Below are positions 1,975 through 49,143 of a stretch of 64,000 nt of DNA, in pieces. The DNA lies in assembly GCF_964204645.1 (NCBI RefSeq), contig NC_134025.1, forward strand, positions 17,144,001 through 17,208,000. The letters are read 5' to 3'. Position 1 is the first letter of the stretch, and each line of letters begins with the position of its first letter. Source of the DNA: Tubulanus polymorphus. Lineage: Eukaryota; Nemertea; Palaeonemertea; Tubulaniformes; Tubulanidae. Under the pieces are notes generated by a model that ran no database searches, was not told the origin of the DNA, and worked only from the letters and a program-made list of their open reading frames with translations. The position numbers and the translations under genes are program-made.

Positions 1975-3099
1975 TTATATATTTTTAATTTTACTTGATA
2001 ATATCCATTCATTGAATTTATTTGGCCATCCAACCCATTTTACTAAAGAATATTTTTTTCTTTTAACAGTTTTTGTTTTTAATACTTTTTCAATTTTATA
2101 TTCTTGTTCTAGATTTTCAGTAGTTAAACTCAATTCTTCTTCATAAAAATACCCATCAACTTCTTCACCATCTAAATCTTCTAATTTATAGACATATGGT
2201 TTTGTTGTTATTACCTTTTTTATTTTATATATTTCTCTAGTAAAATTTCGATCGTATCCTTTGTCAAATATCTTTTTATACTTAGAAATTCTAACATTTT
2301 GACCAACTTTAAATTTAGGTTCACCAAAATCATCTACAAGAAATGCTCCATATAAATTATTCCAAACAATTTCAGCATTTTCAGGTTTTCTAGCATCAAT
2401 AGGTTTCATTCCAATAGAAGAATGATAAGAATTATTATATCCTATCAATTTTGGTAAAACATCAATCCATTTAAAAGTATTATTTGCTGTAAAATATTTC
2501 CACATTCTTGTTCTTAATGTTCTATTAAATCGTTCAACAACTGCTGCTTTTTTATCTGATTTTGTTGAAAAATATTTAATATTATGATTGTCTAAGAGTT
2601 CATGAACAAGTGAATTATCAAATTCTTTTCCATCATCAAATTGTATTTTTTCTGGTTTTAGTTTATCATCCGAAAGAAATTTTCTTAAAACATTTGATGT
2701 TTGTACAGCATCTTTTCTATAAATTGGGAAACTCCATACATAACGACTAAAAATATCAATTATATTCAATAACCACCAATAATCATCATTATCTTTCTTA
2801 ACATTTTTCATATCAATTAAATCTCCTTGCCACTGTTGATCTACATAACTTACCATAGTTTTACGAGTTTTATATTTTCTAACAATTTTTTTATGTGTTG
2901 TGTATGTTGGTTGTTCTAACATAAATTCATTTATATCTTTATATTTAACTAAATTGTGTGGGATTATCTTAATCTAATTTATCTTGTTTTACTTTACGCC
3001 ATATATTTTTGGTAGAAGAATAAGCAACCGAACTCTCAGGGTTGTAATATAAATTTCTTAAATATTGTTCTTTAGTATTAGGAGTTTTTTTTACCTCCC
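1975..3099 (-). CDS. INT: RVE-type DDE integrase with chromodomain-like C-terminus (A); degenerate N-terminus
   Basis: Retroviral-type integrase that in Polintons inserts the linear element and makes 6-bp target duplications. The open frame 1975-2922 encodes 315 residues. Catalytic residues are visible as QGDLIDM (D), IQFDDGKEF (D) and VVERFNRTL (E). The C-terminal 45 residues (YKIEKVL...YSLVKWVGW...WILSSKI) look like a chromodomain. The gene probably starts at 3099 after a TATATAAATG motif, but an 8-A run at codons 4-6 and a second indel near 2962 break the first 60 codons. Compared with B and C one codon (E of LIEGYNN) is missing. The downstream ATPase start touches its stop. Confidence 0.85.
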
Positions 3100-24385: not shown

Positions 24386-24462
24386 GAATATCTCACTACT
24401 TTTGTCTATCTAAGCGGAGCAATTAAATTGTCCAGATAAGTCATTTCGGATTCTAGATATTC
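24386..24462 (+). ncRNA. Conserved structured element (B), possible ncRNA or DNA structure
   Basis: Outer stem GAATATCT (24386-24393) with AGATATTC (24455-24462); inner stem TATCT (24407-24411) with AGATA (24434-24438); hairpin GGAGCAA (24416-24422) with ATTGTCC (24427-24433, one G-T). Internal loops CACTACTTTTG and AGTCATTTCGGATTC are the same in C and nearly so in D. Not tRNA, and no hammerhead core. The strand is assigned from gene direction and is uncertain. Confidence 0.55.
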
Positions 24463-25116
24463 ATTATTTTTATTAATTTATTTTGTTTTTTTAATTTGAA
24501 GTTTTTACTTGAATATTGTATTACAGTCGTTTCTTATTATTAGTTTTTTCTTAAATTGAAAGATGGCAGCACTGGGTGGGGTGTGATGCTAAAATGAATA
24601 TTTGAATTTGAATTTGTTAATCAATTAACATGGTAATTGATTACTAATTTGATTAAAAATTATATCATGATTAAGTTAAAAATCCATAATTCATTTATCA
24701 GTTTTCATTCCTATATTCTTTTCATTCGGAATAATTTATAATTTCAAATTTCATATATTTCTTTAGTAAACACCAACAACATTTACTTAGGTGTTTTAGC
24801 TAAGTAAGGCAATTCATTCGATCACTGGAGTGCCGCCGGGCTTGGCTTGCAGGGGCATTTCGAAAATGCACCTTTGTCCACCCTCCGTGGTTCTCCTTCA
24901 GTTTCGACTTTCGATCCTCCTTTCGGGGGTAAGGGGTTGATAGGAAATGCATCAGGCGCCTTTAATATAATGTGTTTCCTGTCAACCATTGAAGGAGAAT
25001 TGGTGAGGTGTGGGTCACAGGGGTGTAAGTAGAAGTGCTTGGGGATAGGTATCTCGTGGCGCCTCTCAATAACGGGATGCTTATCCCCTAAAAACTCTGC
25101 GAGTCAAGACGGGTGG
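24463..25116. other. Non-coding DNA between Polintons B and C
   Basis: First 30 bases are still similar to C. 24490-24800 is AT-rich and unassigned. 24810-25116 is clearly richer in GC and includes short open frames without recognisable protein. No terminal repeat of B was found here. Likely host DNA or an old non-autonomous repeat. Confidence 0.5.
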
Positions 25117-25201
25117 AGTAATTAGAAGATGGCGTTTTCATACCAGAGTACTAGAGTACTAGACACCACTCATCACCACAAGTAATTTTTTTTCCTTATA
25201 A
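25117..25201. repeat. Left terminal repeat of Polinton C
   Basis: AGTAATTAGAAGATGG, CATACCAGAGTACTAGAGTACT, then ACACCACTCATCACCACAAG and TAATTTTTTTTCC up to the polymerase start. The outer part is of the A type; the inner 33 bases also match C's own right end. Confidence 0.85.
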
Positions 25202-27178
25202 ATGGGGGAGAATAAGACAGAACAAATTGATGTTAATGAAAATCAATATCATTGTCCATATTGTAAAAAATACATTGATAAATCTAATAAATCTAAACAT
25301 GAAAAATCTGCAAATCATATAAAAAATGTAATAGATTTTGAAACTCCAGAAAATTCCAATGAAAGAAAAGAACGATTAGAAAATATGAATGTGGATGAAA
25401 TAAAATGTGAAGTTTGTAATGAATTTATAGTAAAAAGGAATTATAATAGACATCTCGAATCACAAAAACACCATCAAAATTTGAGTAATTGTGTTTTAGG
25501 AAAAGATTATTTTGATGATAAACCTCAAAAAGTAAAAAAACCAACTTCAAAAACTAAATCCATTTCAAATAAACCTTACATGGAAAATGTTAGAAATTAT
25601 ATTGATTCACTAGAAATAAAAGATACAATTGAAATATTAGAAACATTACATAGTAAAATTGGTCCTGCGGCTATTATATTTAGATTCTTTAAAGGAACAA
25701 CAATAGAAGATTATAGTAAATCTAATGAAATAATAGAAAAAATACTAGATTTGATAACAGATGTTGAATATCCAAAAATTAGTATCTCTGGGAAAGTAAG
25801 TATTATAAAGTCAGAAGATAAAATGGATTATAATATTCAAACACTCTCTGAAGAAATAATTTCAAAAACGCAAATAAAAGAGAAGTTAGAAAAAATATTT
25901 AATGAATTTAAACGTCTTATTGAAGAGAGATATTTTGAGGGTTCTGGTTTAACATTGAATGGAATTATATTTTTAGATTTAAATGTTTATTATACAAAAA
26001 GGAATAAAACATCAAAAAGTAAAACAATGTTTGAAAATCACTCAAACTTTACAACAGAAAAGGATATTAAAGCATCAAGTTATATTAAATTACCATTTAC
26101 AACAAAAGCAGTAATAAATGTTCAAAATGAAGATAAATGTTTTCTATGGTCAATTATTAGTTGCTTACACCCAACAGAAGATATTACGCATAGTTTTAGA
26201 ATAACAAATTACCGGAAATATGAAACATTATATAAAATTGATCAATATCCAGTAACTGTAAAAATGATACCCAAAATAGAAAAAATTAATAAGTTAAAAA
26301 TAACTGTATTCGAATTAATACAATTACCAAAGACAAAAGGTGAAAATATTAAAGATTATACATTGGAAGCTTTATATTTAACAGAATATTATGATGATGA
26401 AAATGCTATAGATTTGTTATATTACAAAAAAGATGAAAATGAACATTATATGTGGTTAAAACAAATTGATTTATTCTTTAGAACAGAAAGTGATTTTAAC
26501 AGTCATAAAATTTATCTATGTAGAAAATGTTTATCTGAATTTAGAACTGAGAATGCGTTACTAAAACATAAAGAATTATGTGATAATAAAGATTTTTGCA
26601 AATTAATAATGCCAACAGAAAAAGATTATAAATTGAAATTTACTAATCATAAATTTAAAAATATTGTTCCATTTGTAATTTATGGGAATTTTGAATCGTT
26701 GAATAAAGAATTAACTGATCAAGATAGAAAAGAAATATATAACAAAAAGCAATTATTAAAATCAATGGATAAAGGAAATGAATTAAATGAAGACACAACA
26801 CAAGATCCGCCAATTATAAATACAATTAAAAAAGTTCATCAAAGAGCTGCTGCTTATGGAATTTATATAAAATCAAATTATCAATATATTTCTTTTAGAG
26901 GTGAAGATGTAGTTAATGATTTTTGTAACAAAATGATTGAATTAGAAAGTGATTTTGCAAAATTATTAAACAGAAATAAAAGAATATTCATGACAAAAGA
27001 AGATGAAATTGATTGTGAAAAACGTTTTTATTCATTTGATAAAAAAGTTAGAGATCATGATCATTTAAATTCAAAATATCGTGGAGCTGCTCATGAAGAT
27101 TGCAATTTACAAGCTAAGAAAGTTAATTTCGTGCCAATATTATTAAATCATAATCAAATCACCTTTAGAATATTATGA
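25202..27178 (+). pseudogene. polB: Protein-primed DNA polymerase B, N-terminal half only (C)
   Basis: 658-residue open frame. Two C2H2-type fingers (residues about 16-40 and 77-101), a conserved DKCFLWSIISCLHP block (about 315-328), a finger at about 440-465, exonuclease motif I reading YGNFES (aspartate replaced by asparagine), and an HNH-like block lacking its first Cys pair partner (DCEKRFYSF...RDHDHLNSKYRGAAHEDCN). Near 27150 the sequence jumps into the NITVGPS gene, deleting exonuclease II, all polymerase motifs and penton. Open but not a polymerase; could still make a DNA-binding fragment. Confidence 0.88.
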
Positions 27179-27325
27179 ATTAAATGAAGATGGAATTATT
27201 GATGGTATTAAAAACATATTAACCAAAATATATGATAATCATAAAAGTAGTAATGAAATAAATGTTGAATTAATCATCACTAAGATAACTAAATATTTTG
27301 ATGATAGTAATTTTTTTGATAAATA
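27155..27325 (+). pseudogene. NITVGPS-family protein, 3' part only (C)
   Basis: DGIKNILTKIYDNHKSS to KYFDDSNFFDK and stop at 27323-27325, directly against the next ATG. The 5' part was lost in the deletion that fused polymerase to this gene. It shows the full-length C-terminus of the family. Confidence 0.65.
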
Positions 27326-27326
27326 A

Positions 27327-27548
27327 ATGAGTGATAATAAGTGGATAATAACTGGATTATATAATGGAGCATTACTATCAGTTGGAACTGTTGGTCAATC
27401 AATGGTATTAAAAAAGGTATTCAAAATGGGAAGTGTTAATGTTGATAGATTTGATATCAATGATATTTTAAAATTAACATTAGCAATTACTTTATCTAAT
27501 TTAACTATTGATTATTTAGAAAAACAAAAATATATTCCTCCCATATAA
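27327..27548 (+). CDS. 73-residue hydrophobic protein (C), intact
   Basis: Same protein as 8149-8370, with Tyr to Gln in VGQSMVLKK and Val to Ile later. Starts in the TAAATG motif that also holds the upstream stop. Confidence 0.75.
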   Translation: MSDNKWIITGLYNGALLSVGTVGQSMVLKKVFKMGSVNVDRFDINDILKLTLAITLSNLTIDYLEKQKYIPPI

Positions 27549-27572
27549 ATGCGTAATTATTTTACTAAATAA

Positions 27573-27995
27573 ATGGCTTCTGCAATTATAACTATTATAG
27601 GATCGGCAATTGTTAACGCTTTAGCATTTACTGGTGGTGGTTATTTATTTAAGCATATTGATAAAAATAGTTCATTAGGAGAACAAAGGAGACATAATTT
27701 AGCATTAGAGAAATATAATAAAGCAGCGGAAGAATACAGAGAAAAACGACAAAACTATATGGATTATATTAACAAGGAATTATATGATCAGAAGATTTCA
27801 CATAGAGATTTTCAATGAGTTGATGATGCAATGAGTTTATATAACGCAGTAACCAATAAAGAAAAATTACATCTATACAAACCTAAATTATCAGATTATT
27901 ATACCCCAAGTAAAGAACAACAGAAATATGAAATAATTTGGATTTTAGGTGGAACTGTTATTGTTATATTTGTAACATATAAATTTACTAATTAG
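27573..27995 (+). pseudogene. 140-codon protein with hydrophobic ends (C), one nonsense codon
   Basis: TGA at 27816-27818 in place of the serine codon of FQSVDD; both halves are otherwise open and nearly identical to B and D. Confidence 0.75.
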
Positions 27996-28014
27996 TAATT
28001 TTTTTTCTAAATAA

Positions 28015-28449
28015 ATGGAAGATAAAGTTGATAGTATTGATATTATTCCTCATGATATAAATAAAACTAAATTAAAAATATATTTAGAAAAACAAATATT
28101 AGAATTTGAAAATGACTTAAAGATAAAAAAGAAAAAATATTTAAAAAGTAAAATTATATATTATCTTATTATTAGTGGTTCGGTTACAATTAGTTCTGTA
28201 ATAACATTTCTAGCAATATTCAGCCCATTAACACCTTAAGCTATATCAATTGGTGTGTTAGGATTAAGTTCAAGTGTTTTAACTGGTATAAGTTCAAAAT
28301 TAAATATAAAAAGTAATAAAGAAAAAATTAAAACTAATATAAAAGAAATTAATAAATTAAAGAATACACTAGATTATATGATAAGTTTAAATGGTCATAT
28401 AACAGTTGAAGAACAAGATAAATTATTAAAAGAATTAGTTAATTATTAA
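28015..28449 (+). pseudogene. Two-helix membrane protein (C), one nonsense codon
   Basis: TAA near 28237 interrupts SPLTP-AISIG between the two hydrophobic segments. The rest matches the intact B copy. Confidence 0.75.
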
Positions 28450-28465
28450 TTTTTTAATTATATAA

Positions 28466-29858
28466 ATGGCAGATAGTTTTCCAAAAGCTTTCCAATATAA
28501 TAAATCTATTAAATATAATATTCCAGCAATAGATTTTAATAAAGATATTACATATAGAAATGAAGTTTTAGATTTATTACCTAATTTAGCAATTTATGTT
28601 ACTGAAACTAATAATTTTAATGCAAAGATGGAAAATATATTTCATGTATATTTAATTAATTTTAAAAAATTGAAAGATGAAAAACAATGGTTATTAAAAT
28701 CTAATATGAAGTATTGGCAGAACCAATTAAATTTTGCTGTTTATTGTGCAACAACAGGAAGCGGAATTAGTTGGAATGATCATTTGAATAATTCTAAATA
28801 TAAATTAATTCAAAGTTTATTTAGATTTCATACATACTTTCAAATCAGAATAATATTAAATGAATTAGAGTGCGCTTTATCAGGATCTAGGTATTTTAAA
28901 GAATTAGATAATAATATTAATTTATCAAAGTTTTATAAAATTTGTAATGAATTTAATATAGATATAAATATTTATAATATAAATTTTTAGAACCAAAATT
29001 GGAACAATAAGATCACTTCCTTGCCCTAAAAAGATTGCAGAATATTGTGCACTTCCCATACCATCTAATAGTTTGTATAATATCTATAGTAATAAATTAG
29101 GTTATGGTAAAATAGAAACTAAGGATTTAGAAACATTCAATTTCAATAAATTACCGACATTTTATGATAATTTAAAACAAGAAAACAATAATGGTTGGGT
29201 TTATTTCATTTTAGAAAGTAATGAAGGTTTTACAAAATCAGGTATACAAAGAATAAATCAATCTATTAGAACTTATTTGATATGTATTTTAGGTGCGCAA
29301 GTTGAAACAAGATCCCCAATAATTGGAAATTTAAATACATCATTTGATGCACAGAAACAATTCAAAGTATTATTTGAAGATTCTATTTATAATGATAAAA
29401 ATAGATCGATTCCAGAAGACATTGTAAGACATCAAAATTATTTAGATAAATCTCATGTAAGACTAAATTATTGTATAGGCCCTAATCTATTAATTATTTC
29501 TAATGATTTAGTACTAAAGATGGGAAACATAATTGGTTACAATAATCTAATCAAAACTGCAACAATAAATAATTCATTTGGATTAAATGATATAAATAAA
29601 AAGATTATTACCGCTCCAAAATTAATGGAAGGTGAAAAAAATAAAAAACATATTCAATCAACAGAAACTAAAACTAAGAATATTAAATTAAATAATGATT
29701 CTAAACCGGATTATAATAGATCAGAAAATATTAAAACTGATAATATTCAACATGATATAATTAAAACTGATAATGATAATAAATTCCATGAAAATACTAA
29801 ATTAGCTTTAACTTGTACAGGAATTGTTATAGGAGGAATATTATACTTTAAATTTTAA
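28466..29858 (+). pseudogene. Long conserved Polinton protein with C-terminal anchor (C), one frameshift
   Basis: 174 open residues from MADSFPKAFQYN, a frameshift near 28975-28990, then 261 residues to the C-terminal anchor. Contains the SLPCPKKIAEYCALPIP block that B lacks. Nearly complete: a single lesion. Confidence 0.75.
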
Positions 29859-29874
29859 TTTTTTTATTATATAA

Positions 29875-31355
29875 ATGGATGTAGAAGGTGGAGAAGATTA
29901 TGAAATGGACGGCATGGGAAATAATAATGAAGGATATATTGATGATGATTATAATGATGCAGAAACTAATATTGATAATGATGATGAATCAGCATATAAT
30001 TCTAATTTAGCAGAAAGTGGTTCTAAAGCCCCATCAACTGATGATTATATTAGAAGAACTAGATCGAGAATAAATCCTGAAAATGAAAATCAAGGTTTAT
30101 CGAGTCGGGATTTAGAAAATAAAGAATTTATATATAAGTTCCAACGTGCATTTGAAAGATCTGGATATAATATAAATTACAGAGGTGCCAGATTTTTAGT
30201 AGAAGATTTAAAATATTTAGATGGTGAATATTATTATAAATTGAAAGATGATCATTATATTAATATCACTAATCAAAGGACAAGACTACCTAAAATATTA
30301 GCCGAATCAACTTTGAGTGATTTAGGTCTAGATAAAATTAAGAGAATAAGTATTAGTAATGAAATAACTGATGTTACACAAGAAGAAAGAGATAATAATA
30401 TAAGAGTATTAGGCAGAGAATTGATGACTTATTTAAAATAATCGATGATAATCCAGAAACAGAAACAACTTCTGAACAGAATATAACTTCCAACACTAGT
30501 AAACTTAAATCAAATAAAGTTTCAATTGAAAAACTTTTACCGAGTGGATTAATTGATGCAACAGATCAAGAATTAGAAGATTTAAATAATATATTTTCTG
30601 ATAAAGCTATAAGAGAAATTATTAGTATAAGAAATGAAGCTGATAAAATTGCGCACGATAAAAGTATAAGAGATTTAAAAATTAGAACTTTAGAAAAAGA
30701 ATTAACTGATAAAAATAAAGAAATAGAACAATTAAAATTAGATAGAGATAATAAAGTTATTGAAGAAAAAGAATTTAGAAAAAGAAATGCGTATTTAGAA
30801 AAAGAAAAAGATGATTTAGAATATAACATAGAATTACAAAAAGAAGAAATTAAATTATTGTTTAAATCATATGATTATAATATAAATAGATTAAAAGTTA
30901 TTTTTAAAGATTTGTTGATAAAACCAAATTCTGAAATATCATTGAAAGATAGAATAAAGTTATTATTTAAATTAGAAGGAATAACAATTCTTTCAATTCT
31001 AACAGCTGTAACTATGTTATTTACAACAATTGGTTTAGCAATATCAAATGCTTTAAAATCTACTCCTACTCCCAATAAACCGGATAAACCCCCGAATGAT
31101 AATTCTATACAAGATAAAGTTTAAGATGGTTTAAAGAAATTAGCAAAATATTTATGGGAACTATCTAAAAAATCTGCTGCAGCTTTACCAGGAATTACTG
31201 CATCAATTGTTGGTTTTATATTGAAATCTGCTGGGAATATTCTTAACTTTGCTGCTGAACATATTATTTTATTTTTAATTACAGTTGTAAGTGCTATTAT
31301 TTTTGGGTTAGTGAATATGATTAAAAATAAACAATTAATTTTTTTTGTTAAATAA
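29875..31355 (+). pseudogene. Acidic coiled-coil membrane protein (C), alternative N-terminus, broken
   Basis: The N-terminal third (EDYEMDGMGNNNEGYIDDDYND...) differs from A and B but resembles D. The frame is lost near 30435 and recovered in the coiled coil; TAA near 31123 in KV-DGLKK. The family stop codon is mutated (AAACAA for AAATAA), so the frame would run to TAA at 31353-31355, touching the MCP start. Confidence 0.72.
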
Positions 31356-32604
31356 ATGAGTGGGAGTTATATAAGTCCTTCTAAGATTTCTAGAATATCT
31401 AATGCTATTAAAGCAGAAAGATCACATTATATAATTACTCATAATCCTTCAAATATTGATCCCGATGAAACTTTATATGTTAGAATTCCTAGATTAACAC
31501 AAAATACTTTTTATGTTCCAAATAGTATTTTTTTATCAGCCGATATAAAAGTAACCGGTCATGATAATAATTATGTTGTCGATAATGTTGGAAGATATTT
31601 GATTAAAAAATTAACTATAAAGATTTGACCAGAAACAGTTTTCTCATTAGATGATTATAATTTATTTATGCATTATAAAGATTTATGGTTAACTAAAGAA
31701 AATAGAAATAATATGATATTTCAAGGCATCCAATCAGAAAACCATAATAAATTAAGATCAGGAGCTAATGACGCAATACTAACTCGTGCCACTGATAATT
31801 TGATTAAAAAGATTTATGGAAGCAAATATAAAATTCCATTAGATTTTGAATTGATAAATAATAATGCACCTTTATATAAATACGCAATTCAAGAAGATAT
31901 TATATTTGAGATAACATTTGCTCCTGTAAATGAAATTGTATTATCTAGCGTTGTTAAAGATATGGGTTATAAATTATCAAATATATGTTTAGAATATGAC
32001 ACAGTAACTAATGAAAATATTGCTAGCACAATTCAAACTCAATACAATCAAGGATTTTCATTATTATATGATTATATTGATAAATTTAAAACTGTAACTA
32101 TTAATGCAAATGATGAAATAATTAATGAGAATATTAACTTCCCAAGAAGATCTATTAAAGGTATATTAATATTTTTTTTCCATTGCAACATATTCTAATG
32201 GCGCAATAAAGGTTGATAATTATTATAATCCTGAAATAACAAAAGTAGAAATAACTATCGAAGGAATAGCAAAAAAAATATTTTGTCAAGGAATGAGAAT
32301 GATAGATCAGTGGCCAGAAATTAGAAAACATTTTATGAATGAAAAAGTAAAATCATTTGAAAATTGTAATATTAATCAAATTGATTATTATACTGGTAAT
32401 AAATATGCATTATGGTTAGATTTTAGAACAACAGAGGATAATTCATTACATGGTTCTGGAAAAAAATTACAAAACACTAAAGATGGAATACAATTATTCA
32501 TGACAAAGAAAAAAGGAAGCCTAAATTTCAAAATGCATATTTATATTATATCTGACGCACAATTAAATATTGTAAATTCACAATTAGATAGTATTCAATA
32601 TTAG
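31356..32604 (+). pseudogene. MCP: Major capsid protein (C), nonsense and frameshift
   Basis: TGA at 31626-31628 in the KLTIKIG-PETVF strand (two base differences from the glycine codon in A) and an expanded T-run near 32175 that shifts the frame. All conserved MCP blocks are otherwise present up to SQLDSIQY. Confidence 0.85.
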
Positions 32605-32634
32605 AAATATAAAGTTAAAATTAAGGATATATAA

Positions 32635-33749
32635 ATGGGTGGTAAAAAAAACTCCTAATACTAAAGAACAATATTTCAGAAATTTATAATTCAACCCTGA
32701 GAGTTCGGTTGCTTATTCTTCTACCAAAAATATATGGCGTAAAGTAAAACAAGATAAATTAGATAAGATAATCCCACAAAATTTAGTTAAATATAAAGAT
32801 ATAAATGAATTTATGTTAGAACAACCAACATACACAACACATAAAAAAATTGTTAGAAAATATAAAACTCGTAAAACTATGGTAAGTTATGTAGATCAAC
32901 AGTGGCAAGGAGATTTAATTGATATGAAAAATGTTAAGAAAGATAATGATGATTATTGGTGGTTATTGAATATAATTGATATTTTTAGTCGTTATGTATG
33001 GAGTTTCCCACTTTATAGAAAAGATGCTGTACAAACATCAAATGTTTTAAGAAAATTTCTTTCGGATGATAAAACCAGAAAAAATACAATTTGATGATGG
33101 AAAAGAATTTGATAATTCACTTGTCCATGAACTCTTAGATAATCATAATATTAAATATTTTTCAACAAAATCGGATAAAAAAGCAGCAGTTGTTGAACGA
33201 TTTAACAGAACATTAAGAACAAGAATGTGGAAATATTTTACAGCAAATAATACTTTTAAATGGATTGATGTTTTACCAAAATTGATAGAAGGATATAATA
33301 ATTCTTATCATTCTTCTATTGGAATGAAACCTATTGATGCTAGAAAACCTGAAAATGCTGAAATTGTTTGGAATAATTTATATGGAGCATTTCTTGTAGA
33401 TGATTTTGGTGAACCTAAATTTAAAGTTGGTCAAAATGTTAGAATTTCTAAGTATAAAAAGATATTTGACAAAGGATACGATCGAAATTTTACTAGGGAA
33501 ATATATAAAATAAAAAAGGTAATAACAACAAAACCATATGTCTATAAATTAGAAGATTTAAATGGCGAAGAAGTTGATGGGTATTTTTATGAAGAAGAAT
33601 TGAGTTTAACTACTGAAAATCTAGAACAAGAATATAAAATTGAAAAAGTATTAAAAACAAAAACTATTAAAAGAAAAAAATATTCTTTAGTAAAATGGGT
33701 TGGAAGGCCAGATAAATTCAATGAATGGATATTATCAAGTAAAATTTAA
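32635..33749 (+). pseudogene. INT: RVE-type integrase (C), frameshifts
   Basis: Probable start 32635 with an 8-A run at codons 4-6. The frame 32813-33094 contains the first catalytic aspartate (QGDLIDM); a 5-base deletion near 33070 shifts it; 33066-33749 contains IQFDDGKEF, VVERFNRTL and the chromodomain-like end, shortened by three residues through a premature TAA. Confidence 0.85.
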
Positions 33750-33758
33750 AATATATAA

Positions 33759-34367
33759 ATGAATAAGGAATTATTTATATTTGAGCCTCATAATATGTTA
33801 ATTTCTGGTGTAACAAATTGTGGAAAAACTTATTTTACATTAAATTTATTAGAAACTGTTTATAAAAACTATTTTGATAATATAGTATTATTTTGTCCAA
33901 CATATGAATTTAATCAAACTTATGATAGAAATATTACTAGAAATAATAAATTTATTATATTAGATCCTAAAACAGTAAAAGAAAATTTAGATAATTGTAT
34001 TAAAATAGCAATTGATATTTATAAAGGATCAAATACATTATTCATTATAGATGATTGTGCTAATCTACATGATTCAAAAGTTAGAGAAAGTGAGTTATGC
34101 TATTTAGCTTTCTCTGGGAGACATTTTGGGATAACAGCTTGGGTTTTAAATCAAAAATATAATTCAATTGTTAAAGACTTTAGGGAGAATATAAGATTTC
34201 TAGTTTTATTTTATAATTAAGATAGAAAATCGATGAAAAATGCGCTTGAGGAAAATGATATTATTCCACATGATTTACATAATGAATATATGGATAAGTT
34301 GAAAAATATTAAAAGATCAAAATTACTATTTAGATTACAACACCCATTTAAATATGAATTTATTTAA
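33759..34367 (+). pseudogene. ATP: Packaging ATPase (C), one nonsense codon
   Basis: Walker A GVTNCGKT and Walker B LFIIDDCA are intact; TAA at 34218-34220 in LFYN-DRKS removes the last 48 or so residues. Otherwise as B. Confidence 0.87.
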
Positions 34368-34643
34368 ATTCAACTTGTTAATCTAGTTGAATTCTAGTTA
34401 CATTCTAGTTGAATTCTAGTTATTAGTAGTTGGAACAAAAATCAACTAGATTTAACAATATTTTAACTAGCTTGTTAATCTAGTATATTTTTAGTTACAT
34501 TCTAGTTGAATTCTAGTTGGAACAAAAATCAACTAGATTTAACAAGAAATAAACAAAAACAACAATATTTCAACTAGCTTGTTAATCTAGTTGAATTCTA
34601 GTTACATTCTAGTAGAATTCTCGTTGCAACATCACAACTTATT
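34368..34643. repeat. CTAGTT repeat array, about 2.5 units (C)
   Basis: Same unit as the A and B arrays, with one spacer reduced (GAATTCTAGTTGGAACAAAA), which shows unit loss or gain within the array. It lies between the ATPase and the 201-residue-type gene. Confidence 0.85.
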
Positions 34644-34656
34644 TTTTGTTATATAA

Positions 34657-35175
34657 ATGGTAGGTGAAAAGAAAATAAAAACTAAAAATGGTGATTTTCC
34701 AATTGAAAAAACTTTAGATGATTTAGGAATAACAGAAACAAAATTAATTCCAGATGATGGTGCTTTAAATAATGTTACAACAAATAATAATTATGAATAT
34801 TATCTTTATTGTAAACATCAATTAGAAATATTAATAGCATCTGGAAAATGTAAAAATTTTATTGGTAAAAATTTATTTTATAATGAATTAGATACAAAGA
34901 AATCAGATGAAATTATTAGATTATTTAAGATTTATGAAACCGCGAGAACAGCTAGAATTAATGACGCGATATCAGAAAATGTAGTAAAAGGTTATAGTAA
35001 ATTATGTAATTATATACTACCAATTGAAGATGAAAATAGATTATATTACGATTTAAAAAATGATTATTTAGTTATGACTGAATTAAATAAATGGATTGGA
35101 TATTTATCATTTCAATTAGGTGGATTTATGACATTATTATCAACTGGGGTTATAACGTTTTCAAATATTGAGTAA
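34657..35175 (+). CDS. Conserved Polinton protein (C), C-terminally shortened to 172 residues
   Basis: As 359-964 but a 2-base deletion in ATTGAGTAAAAA ends the frame directly after the hydrophobic segment, removing the tail that overlaps the next gene. The conserved helical core is complete, so the product may be functional. Confidence 0.65.
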   Translation: MVGEKKIKTKNGDFPIEKTLDDLGITETKLIPDDGALNNVTTNNNYEYYLYCKHQLEILIASGKCKNFIGKNLFYNELDTKKSDEIIRLFKIYETARTARINDAISENVVKGYSKLCNYILPIEDENRLYYDLKNDYLVMTELNKWIGYLSFQLGGFMTLLSTGVITFSNIE

Positions 35176-35192
35176 AAATATTTCTATAATAA

Positions 35193-35597
35193 ATGAGCGA
35201 GGTGGAAGAAGTGAAGGAATTAACTGTGAAGAAAAAACCGAGAACTCAGAAACAAATTGAATGGTCTCGGCAATTAGGAATTAAATCACAAGAATATAAA
35301 AAAGCTGTAAAAGAAAAAATAAGTAATAAAAATGTTAATAAAAATAGTGAAAACATTGTTATTTCTACTCCTTCTAATGATAGAATATTTGATAAATGTC
35401 TATATTTTACAGTTGGATTTGTAATTGTATTCATTTTGATTGGGTGTAATTGGTATAAGAAATCAAATAAAATTCATGATATTAATAATTCTGAAACAAC
35501 TGCTATCAAAATTGAAAATAATTCTGAAATTCCAAAATTGACAATAAAAAAATGGATTAATATGAAAAAAAGCAAAAAAAATAATTTTTTTAATTAA
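35193..35597 (+). CDS. Small basic membrane protein (C), altered C-terminus
   Basis: 134 residues. Basic domain and membrane segment as in A. One base fewer in the terminal A-run changes the ending (KKWINMKKSKKNNFFN). Starts at ATGAGCGAGGTGG as in A. Confidence 0.68.
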   Translation: MSEVEEVKELTVKKKPRTQKQIEWSRQLGIKSQEYKKAVKEKISNKNVNKNSENIVISTPSNDRIFDKCLYFTVGFVIVFILIGCNWYKKSNKIHDINNSETTAIKIENNSEIPKLTIKKWINMKKSKKNNFFN

Positions 35598-35610
35598 TTG
35601 AATATTAATT

Positions 35611-35716
35611 GAATATCTCACTACTTTTGTCTATCACTGTGTGGGTGCCGTTTATGGCACCATCTATGCGGAGCAATTAAATTGTCCAGATAAGTCATTT
35701 CGGATTATAGATATTC
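35611..35716 (+). ncRNA. Conserved structured element (C) with extra hairpin
   Basis: Outer stem GAATATCT/AGATATTC and hairpin GGAGCAA/ATTGTCC as in B, same internal loops. A 29-base insertion in the 5' side carries its own hairpin GGTGCC (35644-35649) with GGCACC (35656-35661), so the insertion adds a paired arm and does not disturb the fold. Confidence 0.55.
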
Positions 35717-35746
35717 ATTATTTTTATTAATATATTTTTTTTAAAT

Positions 35747-36073
35747 TTAATCAACAATTTCTAAATCATGATGGCCATCTTCATTTTTTCCATGATGGAT
35801 TATTTTAAATCCTTCTAAATCTTTTAATTCCTCTGTACTCAATGAAACCCATTTATCAGGTAAAAATACTTTAAATTCTCGCGATGTACTAACATTACAG
35901 TAGCTTAAATTAGCTGATACTTTCTCTCCATATTTAGTTTTTATCTTTTCTAATTTCAATATTTTATGTTCAATTTCTTTTGTAACATCAACTAACTTTT
36001 TTATTTCAAATTGTTTTTTTGCTGGTTTTATTCTGTTATTTATTGTTGCTAAGAATGCTTTTCTATCTCCCAT
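35747..36073 (-). CDS. Small inward-facing terminal protein, possible ssDNA-binding (C), 108 residues
   Basis: Starts MGDRKAFLATINN next to the right terminal repeat. Related by eye to the D protein at 45161-45514, sharing KYGEKV...L-Y, FKVFLPDKW, LSTEEL and HHGKNEDGHHDLE. The alternating beta-like pattern (KYG-x-hydrophobic strand, then a basic FLPD turn) would suit an OB-fold single-strand binding protein, which protein-primed replication needs, but this is speculation. In D it follows polymerase; here it is at the other end of the element. Confidence 0.65.
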   Translation of the reverse strand: MGDRKAFLATINNRIKPAKKQFEIKKLVDVTKEIEHKILKLEKIKTKYGEKVSANLSYCNVSTSREFKVFLPDKWVSLSTEELKDLEGFKIIHHGKNEDGHHDLEIVD

Positions 36074-36157
36074 TTATTCGGAAAAAAAATTACTTGTGGT
36101 GATGAGTGGTGTCTCGACCTTCGACCTCTGGTATGAAACAACACATTTCCTATTACT
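36074..36157. repeat. Right terminal repeat of Polinton C
   Basis: Read inward: AGTAATAGGAAATGTGTTG, TTTCATACCAGAGGTCGAAG, GTCGAGACACC, ACTCATCACCACAAG, TAATTTTTTTTCC. The inner part matches C's left end, the outer part matches the tips of D and E. Confidence 0.85.
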
Positions 36158-40903: not shown

Positions 40904-41048
40904 AGTAATAGGGAATATGTTGTTTCATACCAAAGGTCGAAGCTCATAAAAAATAAAAAATAAATTCTCGCAAACTCGAATTTATTTTTTATTTTTTACT
41001 CACTCGCCCCTTCAACCTTTGATATGAAACAACATATTCCCTATTACT
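40904..41048. repeat. Terminal palindrome at the left tip of D
   Basis: Outer arm AGTAATAGGGAATATG...CATACCAAAGGTCGAA; inner arm TTCAACCTTTGATATG...CATATTCCCTATTACT. Centre AAATTCTCGCAAACTCGAATTT-like with A/T runs. Arms pair over most of 145 bases with small mismatches. The right tip (58075-58226) is the same structure. Confidence 0.9.
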
Positions 41049-41095
41049 CTTAAAATATTCATATATATGAATAAAATATAAATGAATAACTTCTA

Positions 41096-41127
41096 AAATC
41101 AATTTTAATAAAACATTTGATATTAAA
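41096..41127 (+). promoter_or_regulatory. Class-2 upstream motif of polB (D)
   Basis: AATTTTAATAAAA, nine bases, then ATATTAAAATGG. Recurs before polB of E (60514-60545), before 45161 and before 51921; absent from the structural-block genes. Confidence 0.55.
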
Positions 41128-44100
41128 ATGGAAGCAAATAAGTACTACTGTCCAACATGTAATATCAATATAGATAAATCCCAAAAAGCAAGACACAATA
41201 AAACTAAAACACATTTAGAGAATAAATTGAAACTAGAATATAAAGATGATATATTAGAAACTAAATTAGATGAATTAAAGAATGAAAAAGAAACATACAA
41301 ATGTGATACATGTAATCAATCATTCAGTGATAAAAGATATTATAAAGAACATTTAAAATCTAAAAGTCATATTAGAAATAAGAATAATGATATTTTAGGT
41401 GAAGATTATTTTGATGAAGATAATGATAAGAAACAGAAGACAATTAAAAGCATAAAAAATAAATTAAACAATAAAAGACCATACATGGAAGATGTAAGAA
41501 AATATATTAATTTATTGGATAATAAAAAAGATATAGAGATAACCGAAGCATTTAAAAGTGATATTGGCCCAGCAGCTATCGAGTTTAAATTTCATAAAGG
41601 AAAAACATTAGAAGAAAATAAAAAACATTTAGAAAATATGAAAGAAATAATAAAAATAATGACTGATGTTGAATATCCTAAAATTAGTATATCAGTTAAA
41701 GTAAAGTTTATAAAATCTGAAGATAAACCAATATATAATATAAATTCTCATTCACAACATATTATATATAAACAACATATAGATGATAAATTAGATAAAT
41801 GTTATAATGAAGTAAAAACTAAAATAGAAGAGAAATATTTTGAAGGATCTGGTTTAATATTTGATGAGATAATATTTATGACTTTACATGTTTATAACAC
41901 AAAATATAATAAGTTAACTAAATCAAAACCAATAGATGAAAATAATGTATCATATTATAAAGAACCAGATATTGAAGCATCAAGTTATATTAAACTACCA
42001 TTTAAAACTAATGCTGTTATAAATGTACAAAATTTTGATGAAGATATTACACATAGTTTTAGATTAACTCATTATAAACCATTTGAAAATAATTATAAGA
42101 TAGATAAGTATCCTGTTATAATTAAAAACATCCCAAAAATAGAAAGAGATAATAATATAAAGATAAATGTATTTGATTTAATCAAATTACCAAATACAAA
42201 AGGTAACAATATAAAACATTATACATTAGAACCTTTATATCTATCAAAAGATTATGATTCAAACGATGTTATAGATATACTATATTATGAGAATCATTAT
42301 ATGTGGATTAAACAAATAGATTTATTCTTTAGAACAGAAAGTGATCACCATAATAAAATATATCTATGTAGAAAATGTTTACATAGATTCAGTAATGAAA
42401 GTACATTATTAAATCATAAACAATTATGTGAAAATCATGATTATTGTAAATTAGTTTTACCAAATGAAAAAGAAAAAATATTAGAATTCAAAAAATTTGA
42501 TTACAAAAATAAAGTACCGTTTGTTATATATGGAGATTTTGAATCATTAAATAAAGAATTAACTGATCAAGATAGAAAAGAAATATATTATAAAAGAAAG
42601 AAATTAAATTCTAATGAAAATAATTATTCTGAAGAACCACCAAAAACAAATACTATTAAAAAGATTCATCAATCAGCTGCAGCTTTCGGGTTATATATTA
42701 AATCTGATTATCCAGAACTAATTGAAAGTGAATATTATCATTATAGAAATGAAAATGTTATCAATCATTTTTGTGACTTATTAATTGAATATGAAATAAG
42801 ATTTAATAAATTATTGAATACAAATATAGAAATTAAAATGACAGAAGAAGATAAAGAAGCATTTCCGTTTGCAGATAAATGTTATTATTGAGAAAAGATA
42901 TTTAATTATAAAGATAAAAAAGTAAGAGACCATGATCATTTGAATGGAAAGTTTAGAGGCGCCGCACATGAGAATTGTAACTTACAAGCTAAGAAAATTA
43001 ACTTTGTACCAGTTATATTTCATAATCTTTCAGGATATGATGCACATTTATTCATCAAACAGTTATGTCATAAAATAGAAGAAATTAATAATGAAATAGA
43101 AAGATTAAATTCAAATAGATCAAAAGATAAAATACCAACTTATAAATTTAGAATGTTAGCTAAAACATCTGAGAATTATATATCATTCCAATTTGGATGC
43201 TTAAGATTTATAGATTCATATAGATTTTTAAATAGTTCATTAGATAACTTATCAAAATCATTAGTTGATGATGAATTGAAGATATTAAAGCAACACTATC
43301 CAAATAATGATGATTTCCAATTAATGAGATATAAAGGAGCAATTCCATATTCATTTTATAAATCACATAATGATTTTAATATAACTGAATTATTAAAAGA
43401 ACAATTCTATGATGAATTAAAAAATGAATATGTTAAAGATGAAGTATATAATAGAACATTGAATATTTGGAATCATTTCAAAATAGAAAATCATGGACAA
43501 TTAGTAGATTCATATCTAAAATCAGATGTATTATTATTAACCGATATATTCGAAAGGTTTAGAGATGTAAACCTAAACTATTTTAACATTGATCCATGTC
43601 ATTGTTATTCTAGTCCAGGTTTAACACGGGATTGTGGATTAAAATTTACAGATATAAAAATGGATTTGTTAACAAATATAGATCAATTATTTTTATTTGA
43701 AAAATCTATAAGAGGAGGAGTTTCAGGTGTATTAGGTGATAGATATTTCAATGTAAATGATAACCCCGGATATAAGTTATTATATATAGATGCAAATAAT
43801 CTATGGTCTATATATGGTTGGGCAATGATGGAACCACAACCATATGGAGTATTTGAATTAACTGAAGTTTTACAGAATGAAAATAATGATAAATTTGATT
43901 GGAAGAAAAGAATTCTAGATATTGCAGATGATTCAGATACTGGTTACTTCTTTGTTGTAGATTTAGAATATCCTGAAGATAAAAAATTTAAATCTAGAAA
44001 TCTAGCTTACTGTCCCGAACATAAAACTGTTACTCATGAAGAATTATCAAATTATCAAAAAAGAATTAAACCCGAAAATCTTATTCATACAGAAAAGTTA

Positions 44101-45131
44101 ATGGTAACTCAAGAAGATAAATATAATTATGTAGTACATTATAGAATTTTAAAGTTTTATTTGAATCAAGGAATGGTTCTAAAAAAAGTACATAGATATA
44201 TTTCATTTAGTCAATCTAAGTGGTTAGAAAAATATATAGATTTTAACACGAAACAGAGAACTGAAGCTAAAACTGATTTTGAGAAAGATTTCTTCAAGTT
44301 AATGAACAATGCATTCTATGGTAAGACTTGTGAAAATATTAGAAATAGAAATGATATTGAGTTAGTTAGTAATGGTAAAAGAATTAGACATTTACAATCA
44401 TACCCTAAGTTCATTGGTAACAGAATATTTGATGAAAATTTAGCCGCAGTTAAAATGAGAAGAACATCAATGAAATTTAATAAACCAATCTATGTTGGCG
44501 CTTCAGTTTTAGAATTATCAAAATTACTAATGTATGAATTCTATTATAATATATTACAACCACTCTTTGGAGAAAAACATATAGAAATATTATATTTTGA
44601 TACCGATTCTTACATATTAAAGATAAAAACTGATAACATAACTGATGATTTAAAAACATTAAAACATCATTTTGATTTCAGTAATTATCCTAAAGATCAT
44701 GAATTGTTTAGCAATGATAATAAAAAAGTTCCAGGGAAGTTTAAGGATGAATTAGGTGGTGAAGAAATGATTGAATTCATCGGTATTAGATCTAAAATGT
44801 ATTCATATAGAACTAAGAACATGAAGCTAAAAAGTTAAAAGGAATAACCAAAAGTGTAGTAGAAAAGAATATTCATTTCAAAGATTACATCAATTGTATA
44901 TTCAATGAAGAAGTTAGAAAACATAAAATGAGATGTTTAAGATCTGAAGATCATGAAATGTTTATTGAAGAAATTGAAAAGATAAGTCTAAACCCATTTG
45001 ATGATAAAAGATATATTTTAGATGATGGAATTCATACAGTTGCTTATGGTTGTAATTTAGATGAATACTTAAAATTTAAAAGAGAAGAAACAAAAGAGAA
45101 CGAGATAATGAAAATAATTCTAACGTGTTAA
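41128..45131 (+). pseudogene. polB: Protein-primed family B DNA polymerase (D), near-complete with few lesions
   Basis: About 1,330 codons. Two C2H2 fingers (YYCPTCNINI and YKCDTCNQSF), a third finger LCRKCLHRF near 42370, exonuclease I YGDFES (42535), HNH-like RDHDHLNGKFRGAAHENCN (42930), exonuclease II SGYDAHLF (43030), exonuclease III SYLKSDVLLLTDIF, motif A DANNLWSIYGWAM (43790; three residues more than E), motif B KLMNNAFYGKT (44300), motif C YFDTDSY (44597). Lesions: TGA at 42889-42891 at a cysteine of the HNH block, a frameshift near 44830, and loss of the CFLWAIISCLHP block present in E. Family role: genome replication primed by a terminal protein. Confidence 0.93.
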
Positions 45132-45160
45132 TCAAATTTTAATAAAAATATGTTATTAAA
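45131..45160 (+). promoter_or_regulatory. Class-2 upstream motif of the small gene after polB
   Basis: AAATTTTAATAAAAA, seven bases, TTATTAAAATGG at the start. Same form as before polB. Confidence 0.5.
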
Positions 45161-45514
45161 ATGGAGAGTAAACAAACACACAGTGAGAACAACAAATTAT
45201 TTCTAGATAGAATAAAAGATATCACAAATGTAAAATCTGTAGATTATAAATTTAAGAAGTTAACAGAATTAACAATCCATAAGAAATATCTAATTACAAA
45301 TATTGATACAGTTACTAATAAATATGGAGATAAATTAGTTATACACTTAGAATATGAAGGATTAAAAGGAAATACACATAAATTCAGAACATATTTACCG
45401 GATAGATTTCATAGATTATCAAGTGAAGATCTAGAAGAATTATGTTCTGGTGATTTCTATTTCGTACACAAAGGTAAGAATGAAAAAGGGCACCATGAAA
45501 TAGATTTCGAATAA
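45161..45514 (+). CDS. 117-residue accessory protein, possible OB-fold ssDNA-binding (D)
   Basis: Intact. A beta-rich pattern (KYLITNIDTVTNKYGDKLVI, then HKFRTYLPDRFH, then DFYFVHKGKNEKGHHEI). Homologous by eye to the minus-strand gene at the right end of C. It sits directly after polymerase and has the polymerase-type upstream motif, so it is probably expressed with replication genes. Function not recognised; OB-fold is a guess from strand pattern. Confidence 0.68.
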   Translation: MESKQTHSENNKLFLDRIKDITNVKSVDYKFKKLTELTIHKKYLITNIDTVTNKYGDKLVIHLEYEGLKGNTHKFRTYLPDRFHRLSSEDLEELCSGDFYFVHKGKNEKGHHEIDFE

Positions 45515-45531
45515 GAAAATATGTAAAATAA

Positions 45532-46287
45532 ATGGTAGAATTAAAAGAATACAGAATATTTGTTGATTCTAGAAAACTTACAAATTATAAATCACATAAT
45601 TTACTAGTACAATTAGATAGAGAATTTAAGAATTGTGTTGATTTAAAATTAGTTAATATAAGTTTATGTAATTCTTTTTTTAATATATCGAATAAAACTC
45701 TTGATCATTTAGCTTTTAAAATTTATGTTAGAAATTTGAATAAATGGTTTCATCTTTATCTAAAACCAGGATTATATAATTTAGAAACATTAGCGCAAGA
45801 AATTAATAAAAGAGCTCGTTTAAAAATGGGTGCAGCTGCTAGATTTGAAATTAGATTTATTAAAAGTGATAGTTCTAATAAAATAAGAATAAAGTTAACT
45901 AATGAACAACATAGATTTCTAGTAAGAAAACCTTTAGATGAACTGTTTGGAATTCTTCCGGATAGACATTATTCAAGTATCGAAACTGATACAAATATAA
46001 TGACTTTTACACACTTTTATATTTATTGCAATTTAATCGAGCCTACAAAAACATTTGAAGCAACTAAAGATACAATTTGTAATTCTAGTATATTAAATAT
46101 TTTACCATTAAAAAATGTTAAACAATTTGGAACTCAAATAAATTATAATTTAACTGAATGTGATTTTAAACCTTGTATTCCTCAATTTGATAATTTTAAA
46201 TTAGAAATAAGAAATCACAATGGATATTTAATTGATTTGAATAACTTTCCTGTAATTTATGAATTAGTTATAAGATGTAGAGAGTAA
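45532..46287 (+). CDS. mCP: Penton-like minor capsid protein (D), intact, 251 residues
   Basis: Complete single jelly-roll-type minor capsid candidate: EYRIFVDSRKL start, KPGLYNLETLAQEIN, KPLDELFGILPD, FYIYCNLIEPTKTFEAT, NILPLKNVKQFG, C-terminal NNFPVIYELVIRCRE. Spacing between these blocks is as in Polinton minor capsid proteins known to me. Role by family: capsid vertices. Only intact copy. The first 60 residues are almost identical to A despite different polymerases. Confidence 0.85.
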   Translation: MVELKEYRIFVDSRKLTNYKSHNLLVQLDREFKNCVDLKLVNISLCNSFFNISNKTLDHLAFKIYVRNLNKWFHLYLKPGLYNLETLAQEINKRARLKMGAAARFEIRFIKSDSSNKIRIKLTNEQHRFLVRKPLDELFGILPDRHYSSIETDTNIMTFTHFYIYCNLIEPTKTFEATKDTICNSSILNILPLKNVKQFGTQINYNLTECDFKPCIPQFDNFKLEIRNHNGYLIDLNNFPVIYELVIRCRE

Positions 46288-46303
46288 TTTTTTCATTATA
46301 TAA

Positions 46304-46659
46304 ATGAATATAACTGTTGGGCCGAGCATATGTTTTGGATTTGATTTTAAACGTGAGAAAGAAATGAAATTTAACATTAATGATGTAATTACACATATCA
46401 AAAATATTACATTTTCTAATGAAACAACATTTGAGTATGAAACAACAATAGATAAAGAAACTTTTAATGTAGAATAGATTACTAATTTAATTAGAGAATC
46501 TTTAAGATTTTATTAATTAGATGAAGATTTTATCATCGATGATATTAAAAAAATAATAATTGAAATATATACAAATGAAACTAGTAATGAAATAAATGTT
46601 GAATTAATCATAAATAAGATAACTAAATATTTTGATGATAGTGATTTTTTGATAAATAA
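46304..46659 (+). pseudogene. NITVGPS-family small protein (D), two stops
   Basis: MNITVGPSICFGFDFKRE start. TAG near 46477 and TAA near 46515 interrupt it; the tail NVELIINKITKYFDDS is recognisable up to the next ATG. Confidence 0.65.
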
Positions 46660-46881
46660 ATGAGTGATAATAAGTGGATAATAACTGGATTATATAATGG
46701 CGCATTACTATCAGTTGGAACTGTTGGTTATTCAATGGTATTAAAAAAAGTATTCAAAATGGGAAGTGTTAATGTTGATAGATTTGATATAAATGATATT
46801 TTAAAGTTAACATTAGCAGTTACTTTATCTAATTTAACTATTGATTATTTAGAAAAACAAAAATATATTCCTCCCATATAA
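46660..46881 (+). CDS. 73-residue hydrophobic protein (D), intact
   Basis: Translation identical to copy A (8149-8370). Evidence for recent common origin or conversion of the structural block. Confidence 0.75.
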   Translation: MSDNKWIITGLYNGALLSVGTVGYSMVLKKVFKMGSVNVDRFDINDILKLTLAVTLSNLTIDYLEKQKYIPPI

Positions 46882-46906
46882 ATGCATAATTTTTTTTGCT
46901 AAATAA

Positions 46907-47329
46907 ATGGCTTCTGCAATTATAACTATTATAGGATCGGCAATTGTTAACGCTTTAGCATTTACTGGTGGCGATTATTTATTTAAACATATTGATAAAA
47001 ATAGTTCATTAGGAGAACAAAGAAGACATAACTTAGCATTAGAGAAATACAATAAAGCTGCAGAAGAATATAGAGAAAAGAGGCAAAACTATATGGATTA
47101 TATTAACAAAGAATTATATGATCAGAAGATTTCACACAGAGATTTTCAATCAGTTGATGAAGCTATGAGTTTATATAACGCTGTAACCAATAAAGAAAAA
47201 TTACATCTATACAAACCTAAATTATCAGATTATTATACCCCCAGTAATGAACAGAAGAAATATGAAATAATTTGGATTTTAGGTGGAACTGTTATTGTTA
47301 TATTTGTTGCTTATAAGTTTACTAATTAG
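46907..47329 (+). CDS. 140-residue protein with hydrophobic ends (D), intact
   Basis: As B, with small substitutions (GGDYLF for GGGYLF). Hydrophobic N-terminus, charged helix, C-terminal membrane segment. Followed by the class-1 spacer at 47330-47348. Confidence 0.78.
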   Translation: MASAIITIIGSAIVNALAFTGGDYLFKHIDKNSSLGEQRRHNLALEKYNKAAEEYREKRQNYMDYINKELYDQKISHRDFQSVDEAMSLYNAVTNKEKLHLYKPKLSDYYTPSNEQKKYEIIWILGGTVIVIFVAYKFTN

Positions 47330-47348
47330 TAATTTTTTTGCTAAATAA

Positions 47349-47736
47349 ATGGAAGATAAAGTTGATAATATTGATATTATTCCTCATGATATAAATAAAA
47401 CTAAATTAAAAACATATTTAGAAAAACAAATATTAGAATTTGAAAGTGACTTAAATTATTAGTGGTTCGGTTACAATTAGTTCTGTAATAACATGTTTAG
47501 CAATATTTTCACCATTAACACCTTTAGCTATATCAATTGGCGTGTTAGGATTATCATCAAGTGTTTTAACTGGTATAAGTTCAAAATTGAATATAAAAAG
47601 TAATAAAGAAAAAATTAAAACTAATATAAAAGAAATTAATAAATTACAGAATACACTAGATTATATAATAAGTTTGAATGGCCATATAACAGTTGAAGAA
47701 CAAGATAAATTATTAAAAGAATTAATAAATTATTAA
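47349..47736 (+). pseudogene. Two-helix membrane protein (D), internal deletion
   Basis: About 45 bases encoding the basic segment and the start of the first hydrophobic segment are deleted near 47452, giving an immediate TAG; the C-terminal part is open from about 47463 to 47736. Confidence 0.72.
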
Positions 47737-47752
47737 TTTTTTAATTATATAA

Positions 47753-49143
47753 ATGGCAGATAGTTTTCCAAAAGCTTTCCAATATAATAAATCAATTAAA
47801 TATAATATTCCAGCAATAGATTTTAATAAAGATATTACATATAGAAATGAAGTTTTAGATTCATTAACTAATTTAGAAATTTATGTTACTTATGTTACTG
47901 AAACTAATAATTTTAATGCAAAGATGGAATTCATGTCTATTTAATTAATTTTAAAAAATTGAAAGATGAAAAACAATGGTTATTAAAATCTAATATGAAG
48001 TATTGGCAGAACCAATTAAATTTTGCTGTTTATTGTGCAACAACAGGATGTGGAATTAGTTGGAATGATCATTTGAATAATTCTAAATATAAATTAATTC
48101 AAAGTTTATTTAGATTTCATACATACTTTCAAATCAGAATAATATTAAATGAATTAGAGTGTGCTTTACTAGGATCTAGATATTATTAAGAATTAGATAA
48201 TAATATTAATTTATCAAAGTTTTATAAAATTTGTAATGAATTTAATATAGATATAAATAATTCTGATTTTAGAACAAAAATTGGAACAGTAAGATCACTT
48301 CCTTGCCCTAACAAGATTGCAGAATATTGTGCACTTCCCATACCATCTAATAGTTTTTATAATATCTATAATAATAAATTAGGTTATGGTAAAATAGAAA
48401 CAAAGGATTTAGAAACATTAAATTTCAATAAATTACCGAAATTTTATGATCATTTAAAACAAGAAAACAATAATGGTTGGGTTTATTTCATTTTAGAAAA
48501 TAGTGAAGGTTTTACAAAATCAGGTATACAAAGAATAAATCAATCTATTAGAACTTATTTGATATGTATTCTAGGCGCACAAGTTGAAACAAGATCCCCA
48601 ATAATTGGAAATTTAAATACATCATTTGATACGCAGAAACAATTTAAAGTATTATTTGAAGATTCCATTCATAATGATAAAAATAGATCGATTCCAGAAA
48701 ACATTGTAAGATATCAAAATTATTTAGATAAATCACATATTAGATTAAATTATTGTATAGGCCCTAATCTATTAATTATTTCTAATGATTTAGTATTAAA
48801 GATGGGAAATATAATTGGTTATAATAATCTAATTAAAACTGCAACAATAAATAATTCATTTGGATTAAATGATATAAATAAAAAGATAATAACTGCTCCA
48901 AAATTAATGGAAGGTGAAAAAAATAAAAAACATATTCAATCAACAGAAACTAAAACTAATAATATTAAATTAAATAATGATTCTAAAATAAAAGATTACA
49001 ATACATCAGAAAATATTAGAACCGATAATGTTCAACATGAAATAATTAAACTAAATGATGATAATAAATCCCATGAAAATACTAAATTAGCTATAACTTG
49101 TATAGGAATTGTAATCGGAGGAATATTATATTTTAAATTTTAA
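47753..49143 (+). pseudogene. Long conserved Polinton protein with C-terminal anchor (D), several breaks
   Basis: A 9-base duplication (YVTYVTE), a deletion near 47930, and TAA at 48187-48189. The last 194 codons are open to the C-terminal hydrophobic anchor. All conserved blocks are recognisable. Confidence 0.75.

Follow-up and report, generated by a model that had tools for sequence, protein, structure and literature searches.

A conserved, likely structured non-coding element towards the right end of Polintons in the nemertean Tubulanus polymorphus

Polintons are thought to be viruses, and to our knowledge their non-coding signals have been little studied. Small RNAs encoded near a genome end are familiar from phi29 (pRNA) and adenovirus (VA RNA), and mobile elements carry self-cleaving ribozymes, such as the hammerheads of giant retroelements. 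For Polinton-like viruses, non-coding RNA genes have been reported that include tRNAs, group I introns and others (PMC12220804). Among the papers listed in searches of the open-access literature, titles and abstract openings describe no Polinton element of the kind reported below, a non-coding element of about 75 bases that stands at several hundred places in the genome of T. polymorphus, the examined ones mostly inside Polintons.

We analysed 64,000 nucleotides of contig NC_134025.1 (the window), in which Polintons were recognised by an rve integrase, an A32-like ATPase and terminal inverted repeats:

From about 15341 leftward out of the window: Polinton A.
From the end of Polinton A: Polinton B, which lacks PolB.
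About 25117-36157, + strand: Polinton C, with short terminal inverted repeats at 25136-25209 and 36066-36138.
About 40904-58226, + strand: Polinton D, with terminal inverted repeats of ~364 bp at 40904-41259 and 57864-58226.
1975-2922, - strand: integrase homologous to that of Polinton D (Pfam rve, E 1.8e-10).
53678-54592, - strand: retroviral-type integrase of Polinton D, homologous to 1975-2922(-) and inverted relative to Polintons A, B and C.
53074-53535, - strand: A32-like packaging ATPase of Polinton D (Pfam Pox_A32, E 1.8e-6), likewise inverted relative to A-C.

The chromodomain match that accompanies the Polinton integrase lies below the Pfam cut-off. Pfam searches of ten window ORFs named no PolB or capsid family, and the ORFs called PolB and capsid here are presumed to be such from their position and sequence motif. 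The 415-aa ORF has 172 relatives, with no informative name among the 120 listed. Each terminal repeat of Polinton D (40904-41048 and 58075-58226) is imperfectly palindromic over about 145 bp, so that the ends could fold back on themselves. At about 57774-57998 on the - strand, in the right repeat, the start of a PolB-like ORF and an HNH-like C-terminus are fused, as though the repeat had grown over the HNH-like gene.

A first-pass annotation of the window had placed one short element in three of these Polintons, and we confirmed it at all three sites:

24386-24462, + strand: copy in Polinton B, recognised by sequence and by covariance model.
35611-35716, + strand: copy in Polinton C, interrupted at 35636-35664 by a mini-palindrome of 29 nt, recognised by sequence and by covariance model.
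55964-56058, + strand: copy in Polinton D, with a longer outer stem that has one bulged base, recognised by sequence and by covariance model.

Each Polinton in the window has one recognisable copy; for Polinton A, the 3' half of a fourth copy lies 73-92 bases ahead of the window start (locus L046). A 23-mer of the 3' half, searched with up to three mismatches, has three window matches, all exact, versus none in 100 shuffles. Taken by itself, the 18-base 5' pattern does not exceed chance within the window when three mismatches are allowed (three matches, all at 0-1 mismatches; shuffle mean 1.14, with 10 of 100 shuffles reaching three). Nine copies, including B-type and D-type ones, went into a covariance model, which recovers the three window copies and one further match at E 0.98. 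Across the 268-Mb assembly (77 contigs), the 3' half matches 446 + 440 = 886 times at up to three mismatches and its reversed control 11 + 4 = 15 times, the corresponding counts for the 5' half being 389 + 384 = 773 and 6 + 9 = 15; among the matches listed, exact 3'-half matches on C1 and C2 are mostly mid-chromosome. Viral and prokaryote contigs contain no exact match to the 23-mer, and no relative of the element was found there by way of the capsid-like and integrase proteins; there are protein relatives of up to 77% identity. At one locus (L053) a second, partial copy of the 3' half lies at 2299 in element orientation, some 800 bp to the right of the intact element. The element as coding sequence was rejected, as family lengths differ by 1 and 4 nt.

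The proposed fold consists of a variable outer stem P1 (7-15 pairs), an almost invariant internal loop with strands of 14 and 17 nt, an invariant stem P2 (TATCT/AGATA) and a hairpin P3 (GGA/TCC plus four pairs, with a bulged G), P2 and P3 being separated by 3-4 unpaired nucleotides on one side. In Polinton B these parts are placed as follows:

24386-24392/24456-24462, + strand: P1.
24393-24406 and 24439-24455, + strand: internal loop.
24407-24411/24434-24438, + strand: P2.
24416-24423/24427-24433, + strand: P3.

The unpaired segments had been described as constant, and the loops are indeed nearly so among copies; because most copies were fetched by a 3'-half pattern, the conservation of P2b and of the 3' loop strand is overstated. 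Two alignments were used to examine the stems. The first, fitted to the model (100 of 190 loci entered, 99 matched, 91 distinct rows counted), has 90.8% of 2244 stem cells paired, against 28-38% with one strand slid and with 0 of 500 shuffles as high, a value that leans towards the model because the alignment was fitted to it. Nine pairs are changed on both sides in these 91 copies, seven in P1, two in P3 and none of the five in P2. The second, an unfitted loop-anchored parse, kept 164 of 196 rows, and its 127 distinct copies are the basis of the covariation test, the wobble and substitution counts and the deep/terminal test below. The 32 rows dropped include second or spurious matches at 18 loci that are still counted through another row, and leave 13 loci uncounted: four with the C-type insert (L035, L048 with two rows, L056, L186), six with the 5' half missing or replaced (L040, L162, L164, L169, L170, L182), two with 5'-half indels (L057, L187) and one whose P3 start differs (L171). 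In this parse P2 is paired in 94-99% of copies and P3 in 96-99%. For P1 the values are 81-97% over the six inner positions and 39-80% farther out, where the arms shift by indels.

The change in P3 from CAAT/ATTG in B and C to CAGT/ACTG in D is as first described. The accompanying swap in the outer stem does not hold, as GAATATCT/AGATATTC of B and AGGATTTA/TAAATCCT of D occupy non-equivalent positions: the inner P1 of Polinton D is ATTATC/GATAAT, of which AGGATTTA/TAAATCCT is the outer continuation. Compensatory pairs do exist, five of them between loci L106 and L146 (four in P1, Watson-Crick in both copies, and one in P3), though not significantly given the tree of copies; in the P1 pair next to the loop, one of the two copies has C-G and its counterpart C-A. 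Over seven families the pairing of arms with their own partners sums to 82, versus a mean of 75.3 with the arms of others (24 of 5040 permutations as good), one family pairing slightly better with the others' arms. RNAalifold on the unfitted alignment returned four pairs only, all in P3, and the consensus fold of another alignment of the element, in which one long insert probably interfered, had three pairs and none of the proposed stems. Fold z-scores of six single sequences range from -1.1 to -3.2, and for the three copies folded singly the + strand gave somewhat better folds. In P3 one family (14 of 127 distinct copies) carries G-T, which can wobble on + RNA only; at P1 position 2 another family (8 of 127) carries C-A, which can do so on - RNA only. 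As bare counts, wobble-type changes number 27 G-T to 42 A-C, versus 14.2 to 16.9 when columns are re-paired.

The first-pass annotation had taken a lack of covariation above background as a refutation, and formally this is the outcome here: no pair was significant. Among the 127 distinct copies, our rough implementation of an R-scape-like test (tree by FastTree, Fitch reconstruction, 100 null alignments, G-test with APC) placed the best stem pair, P3 position 3, at E = 39 and the best of all column pairs, which is not a stem pair, at E = 0.58, the power being low because few P2 and P3 changes sit on deep branches. Over all branches, changes do not favour pairing relative to random re-pairing, in part because of the tree itself, on which reconstructed substitutions number 271 on terminal branches, 82 on branches leading to at least five copies and 75 on those leading to 2-4. 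The terminal changes look like decay after insertion. The core (loops, P2 and P3) shows 12 deep to 104 terminal changes versus 52 to 124 elsewhere (Fisher p = 8e-5; p = 1.5e-4 without the part used for fetching copies), and deep changes per site number 0.24-0.29 in the loops versus 1.4-1.6 in P1. This deep-branch purging, together with a core shared despite unalignable flanks, supports the view that purifying selection has kept the core in the lineages that spread. The earlier claim of a selected structured element is supported in part, as to selection and a conserved fold; compensation is not significant on the tree. Structure is likely, and covariation between the stem arms is suggestive, not proven.

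The element lies towards the right (non-PolB) end of the Polinton in a fixed orientation. In Polinton D the block of integrase, ATPase and 201-aa gene is inverted and the orientation of the element to the PolB end is unchanged; since only the block is inverted, the element is tied to the right end and not to that block. The neighbouring genes in Polintons C and D are the following:

35193-35597, + strand: 134-aa ORF of Polinton C, stopping 13 nt before the element.
35747-36073, - strand: 108-aa ORF of Polinton C, ending 30 nt from the element and convergent with the 134-aa ORF.
56880-57533, - strand: HNH-endonuclease-like ORF at the right end of Polinton D (weak Pfam HNH_4 match, E 0.062, below the cut-off).

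The last of these reads towards the element and ends about 820-840 nt short of it, and in the main D lineage the next leftward gene starts ~240 nt beyond; with such distances (~820 and ~240 nt) the element is not a simple 3' UTR in that lineage. At least two kinds of leftward gene terminate next to the element or within it, and frames of the HNH C-terminus stop in the internal loop at L053 and seven short loci (L097, L100, L103, L109, L118-L120), as do those of a variant HNH-type C-terminus at L099, L101 and L102. In 140 of 192 rows the leftward reading frame across the element stays open for under 20 codons, and most of the 52 longer frames are D-type ones that encode no recognised protein. 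When a lineage B locus (L001) is compared with 38 D-lineage locus entries, some from the same place, ~74 bp align, and in 37 of the 38 nothing else does at E 1e-5 within ~1.5 kb on either side; the remaining entry (L062) has one further 132-bp stretch in common. Right-hand contexts of 164 copies fall into clusters of 85, 56, 8, 7 and 5 plus three singletons. Those of 8 and 7 are ends of one HNH-like gene, and one representative each of the clusters of 85, 56 and 8 (900 nt) have nothing in common next to the element. At least three, and perhaps four, unrelated right-hand contexts adjoin the same core; the left contexts, being AT-rich, could not be told apart by this clustering. In lineage B, other sequence common to many B-type loci lies at 24490-25117, separating the element from the right end.

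Some loci keep only part of the element. A junction pattern that retains only the 3' half has 14 convincing matches genome-wide at up to two mismatches and one more that resembles chance, the reversed control giving three matches at three mismatches. Five such loci were read (L040, L162, L164, L170, L182), one across 1.5 kb and four across only ~100-200 bases; L040 runs on its other side to the PolB end of a Polinton. In all five, GC-rich sequence is joined to the 3' half, with tandem repeats in L040. These loci resemble deletion derivatives that have multiplied despite lacking part of the element, which suggests that an intact copy is not required in cis for spread, in keeping with a role in expression.

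The additional hairpin in the Polinton C copy (35636-35664) is, in correction of the first-pass annotation, a separate insert that is found elsewhere too. This GC-rich mini-palindrome (GTGGGTGCC, a few nucleotides, GGCACC) occurs 167 times in the genome versus 0 for the control, and its sites vary within the element, lying at 35636-35664 in the window and in P1 at L046, L044, L168 and L189. At L061-L087 it occupies one site left of the element. Of 35 D-lineage locus entries (some from the same place), 12 carry it as an insert of 21 or 27 nt and the others have empty sites; it lies there in a leftward frame, which is open in L061, L083 and L088. Of 32 mini-palindromes listed on C1 and C2, 11 are within 6 kb of an exact element match, with 1.2 expected. 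It looks like a tiny mobile palindrome, presumably resembling Rickettsia palindromic elements or yeast mitochondrial GC clusters.

Gene order and fold together lead us to propose, tentatively, that the element may be a structured, RNA-level 3'-end signal of Polinton transcripts at the right end. The right-end genes (the 108-aa gene and the HNH-like gene) read leftward and stop beside or inside the element in several families, and a rightward gene of lineage A/B/C likewise ends shortly ahead of it, so that convergent transcription would meet there. The fold of P1, P2 and P3 with its conserved internal loop would be recognised, or would cleave itself, and such recognition or cleavage would define, stabilise or end transcripts at the point of convergence.

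It is rather unlikely that the element instead acts as DNA, either as paired protein-binding sites or as an end-proximal site for packaging, replication or recombination. Its end-proximal position and fixed orientation suit such a signal, as do the absence of any compensated change in P2 (0 of 5 pairs), whose inverted pair TATCT/AGATA we take to be a GATA-factor core, and the switch of right-hand contexts at the element, as at a recombination boundary. However, P3 and P1 change and yet remain paired, and derivatives with the 3' half only have spread (the 14 pattern matches).

An independent small structured RNA gene near the genome end, acting in trans, is unlikely. A location near one end in fixed orientation, a single recognisable copy per window Polinton, independence from the direction of neighbouring genes and the spread of derivatives without the 5' half would all fit a trans-acting product. 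Against it, the flanks are unalignable between lineages, which makes a shared promoter outside the core unlikely, there is no tRNA-like gene in the window, and Rfam yields no match: the whole window at gathering thresholds gave none in Rfam 15 (ribozymes, tRNA-like, Y RNA, snoRNA, miRNA), and permissive searches of the Polinton D region and six loci gave sub-threshold matches only. An identity as a tRNA was rejected on the same lack of a tRNA-like gene in the window; resemblances to Y RNA and U7, to tRNA A and B boxes and to an insect snRNA promoter were considered and set aside. A hairpin at 56159-56177, ~100 nt right of the D element, is also present at the same place in D-lineage loci, with arms that vary strongly between copies, constant flanks and a sub-threshold Rfam match to mir-460 (E 0.029).

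We consider it quite improbable that the element has no function and is a repeat in which template switching made the inverted arms alike, pairing and conservation being by-products. The negative R-scape-like test agrees with this, as do whole-tree changes, mostly terminal, that do not favour pairing; conservation of the core between lineages with unalignable flanks, the purging of core changes on deep branches and non-palindromic loops with few deep changes speak against it. A putative self-cleaving ribozyme of an undescribed class is very doubtful: the small compact fold with its two almost invariant, facing internal-loop strands and the occurrence of self-cleaving RNAs in other mobile elements are compatible with one, but Rfam assigns neither strand to a known ribozyme family, in line with the first-pass annotation, and the cores of the hammerhead, twister, hairpin, pistol and hatchet ribozymes were considered and set aside. 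It is equally doubtful that Polintons carry a new viral structured-RNA class, a candidate self-cleaving ribozyme or phi29 pRNA-like packaging or terminal RNA, as a right-terminus RNA retained while neighbouring genes were exchanged around it.

With its several hundred copies, the element offers a direct handle for RNA-seq and reporters and as a marker of once-active lineages. Its resemblance to the adenovirus packaging domain and the phi29 pRNA gene is one of position alone: like them it is conserved and non-coding near one end of a linear genome that has a packaging ATPase and a presumed protein-primed PolB, whereas derivatives without half of the present element have spread. Like the self-cleaving ribozymes of mobile elements it would be a small, structured RNA motif that travels with its mobile host; unlike them, it has no Rfam ribozyme match. 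The RNA genes of Polinton-like viruses described in PMC12220804 are of known classes, while the present element matches no Rfam family; both are nonetheless non-coding RNA genes or elements housed inside Polinton-type genomes.
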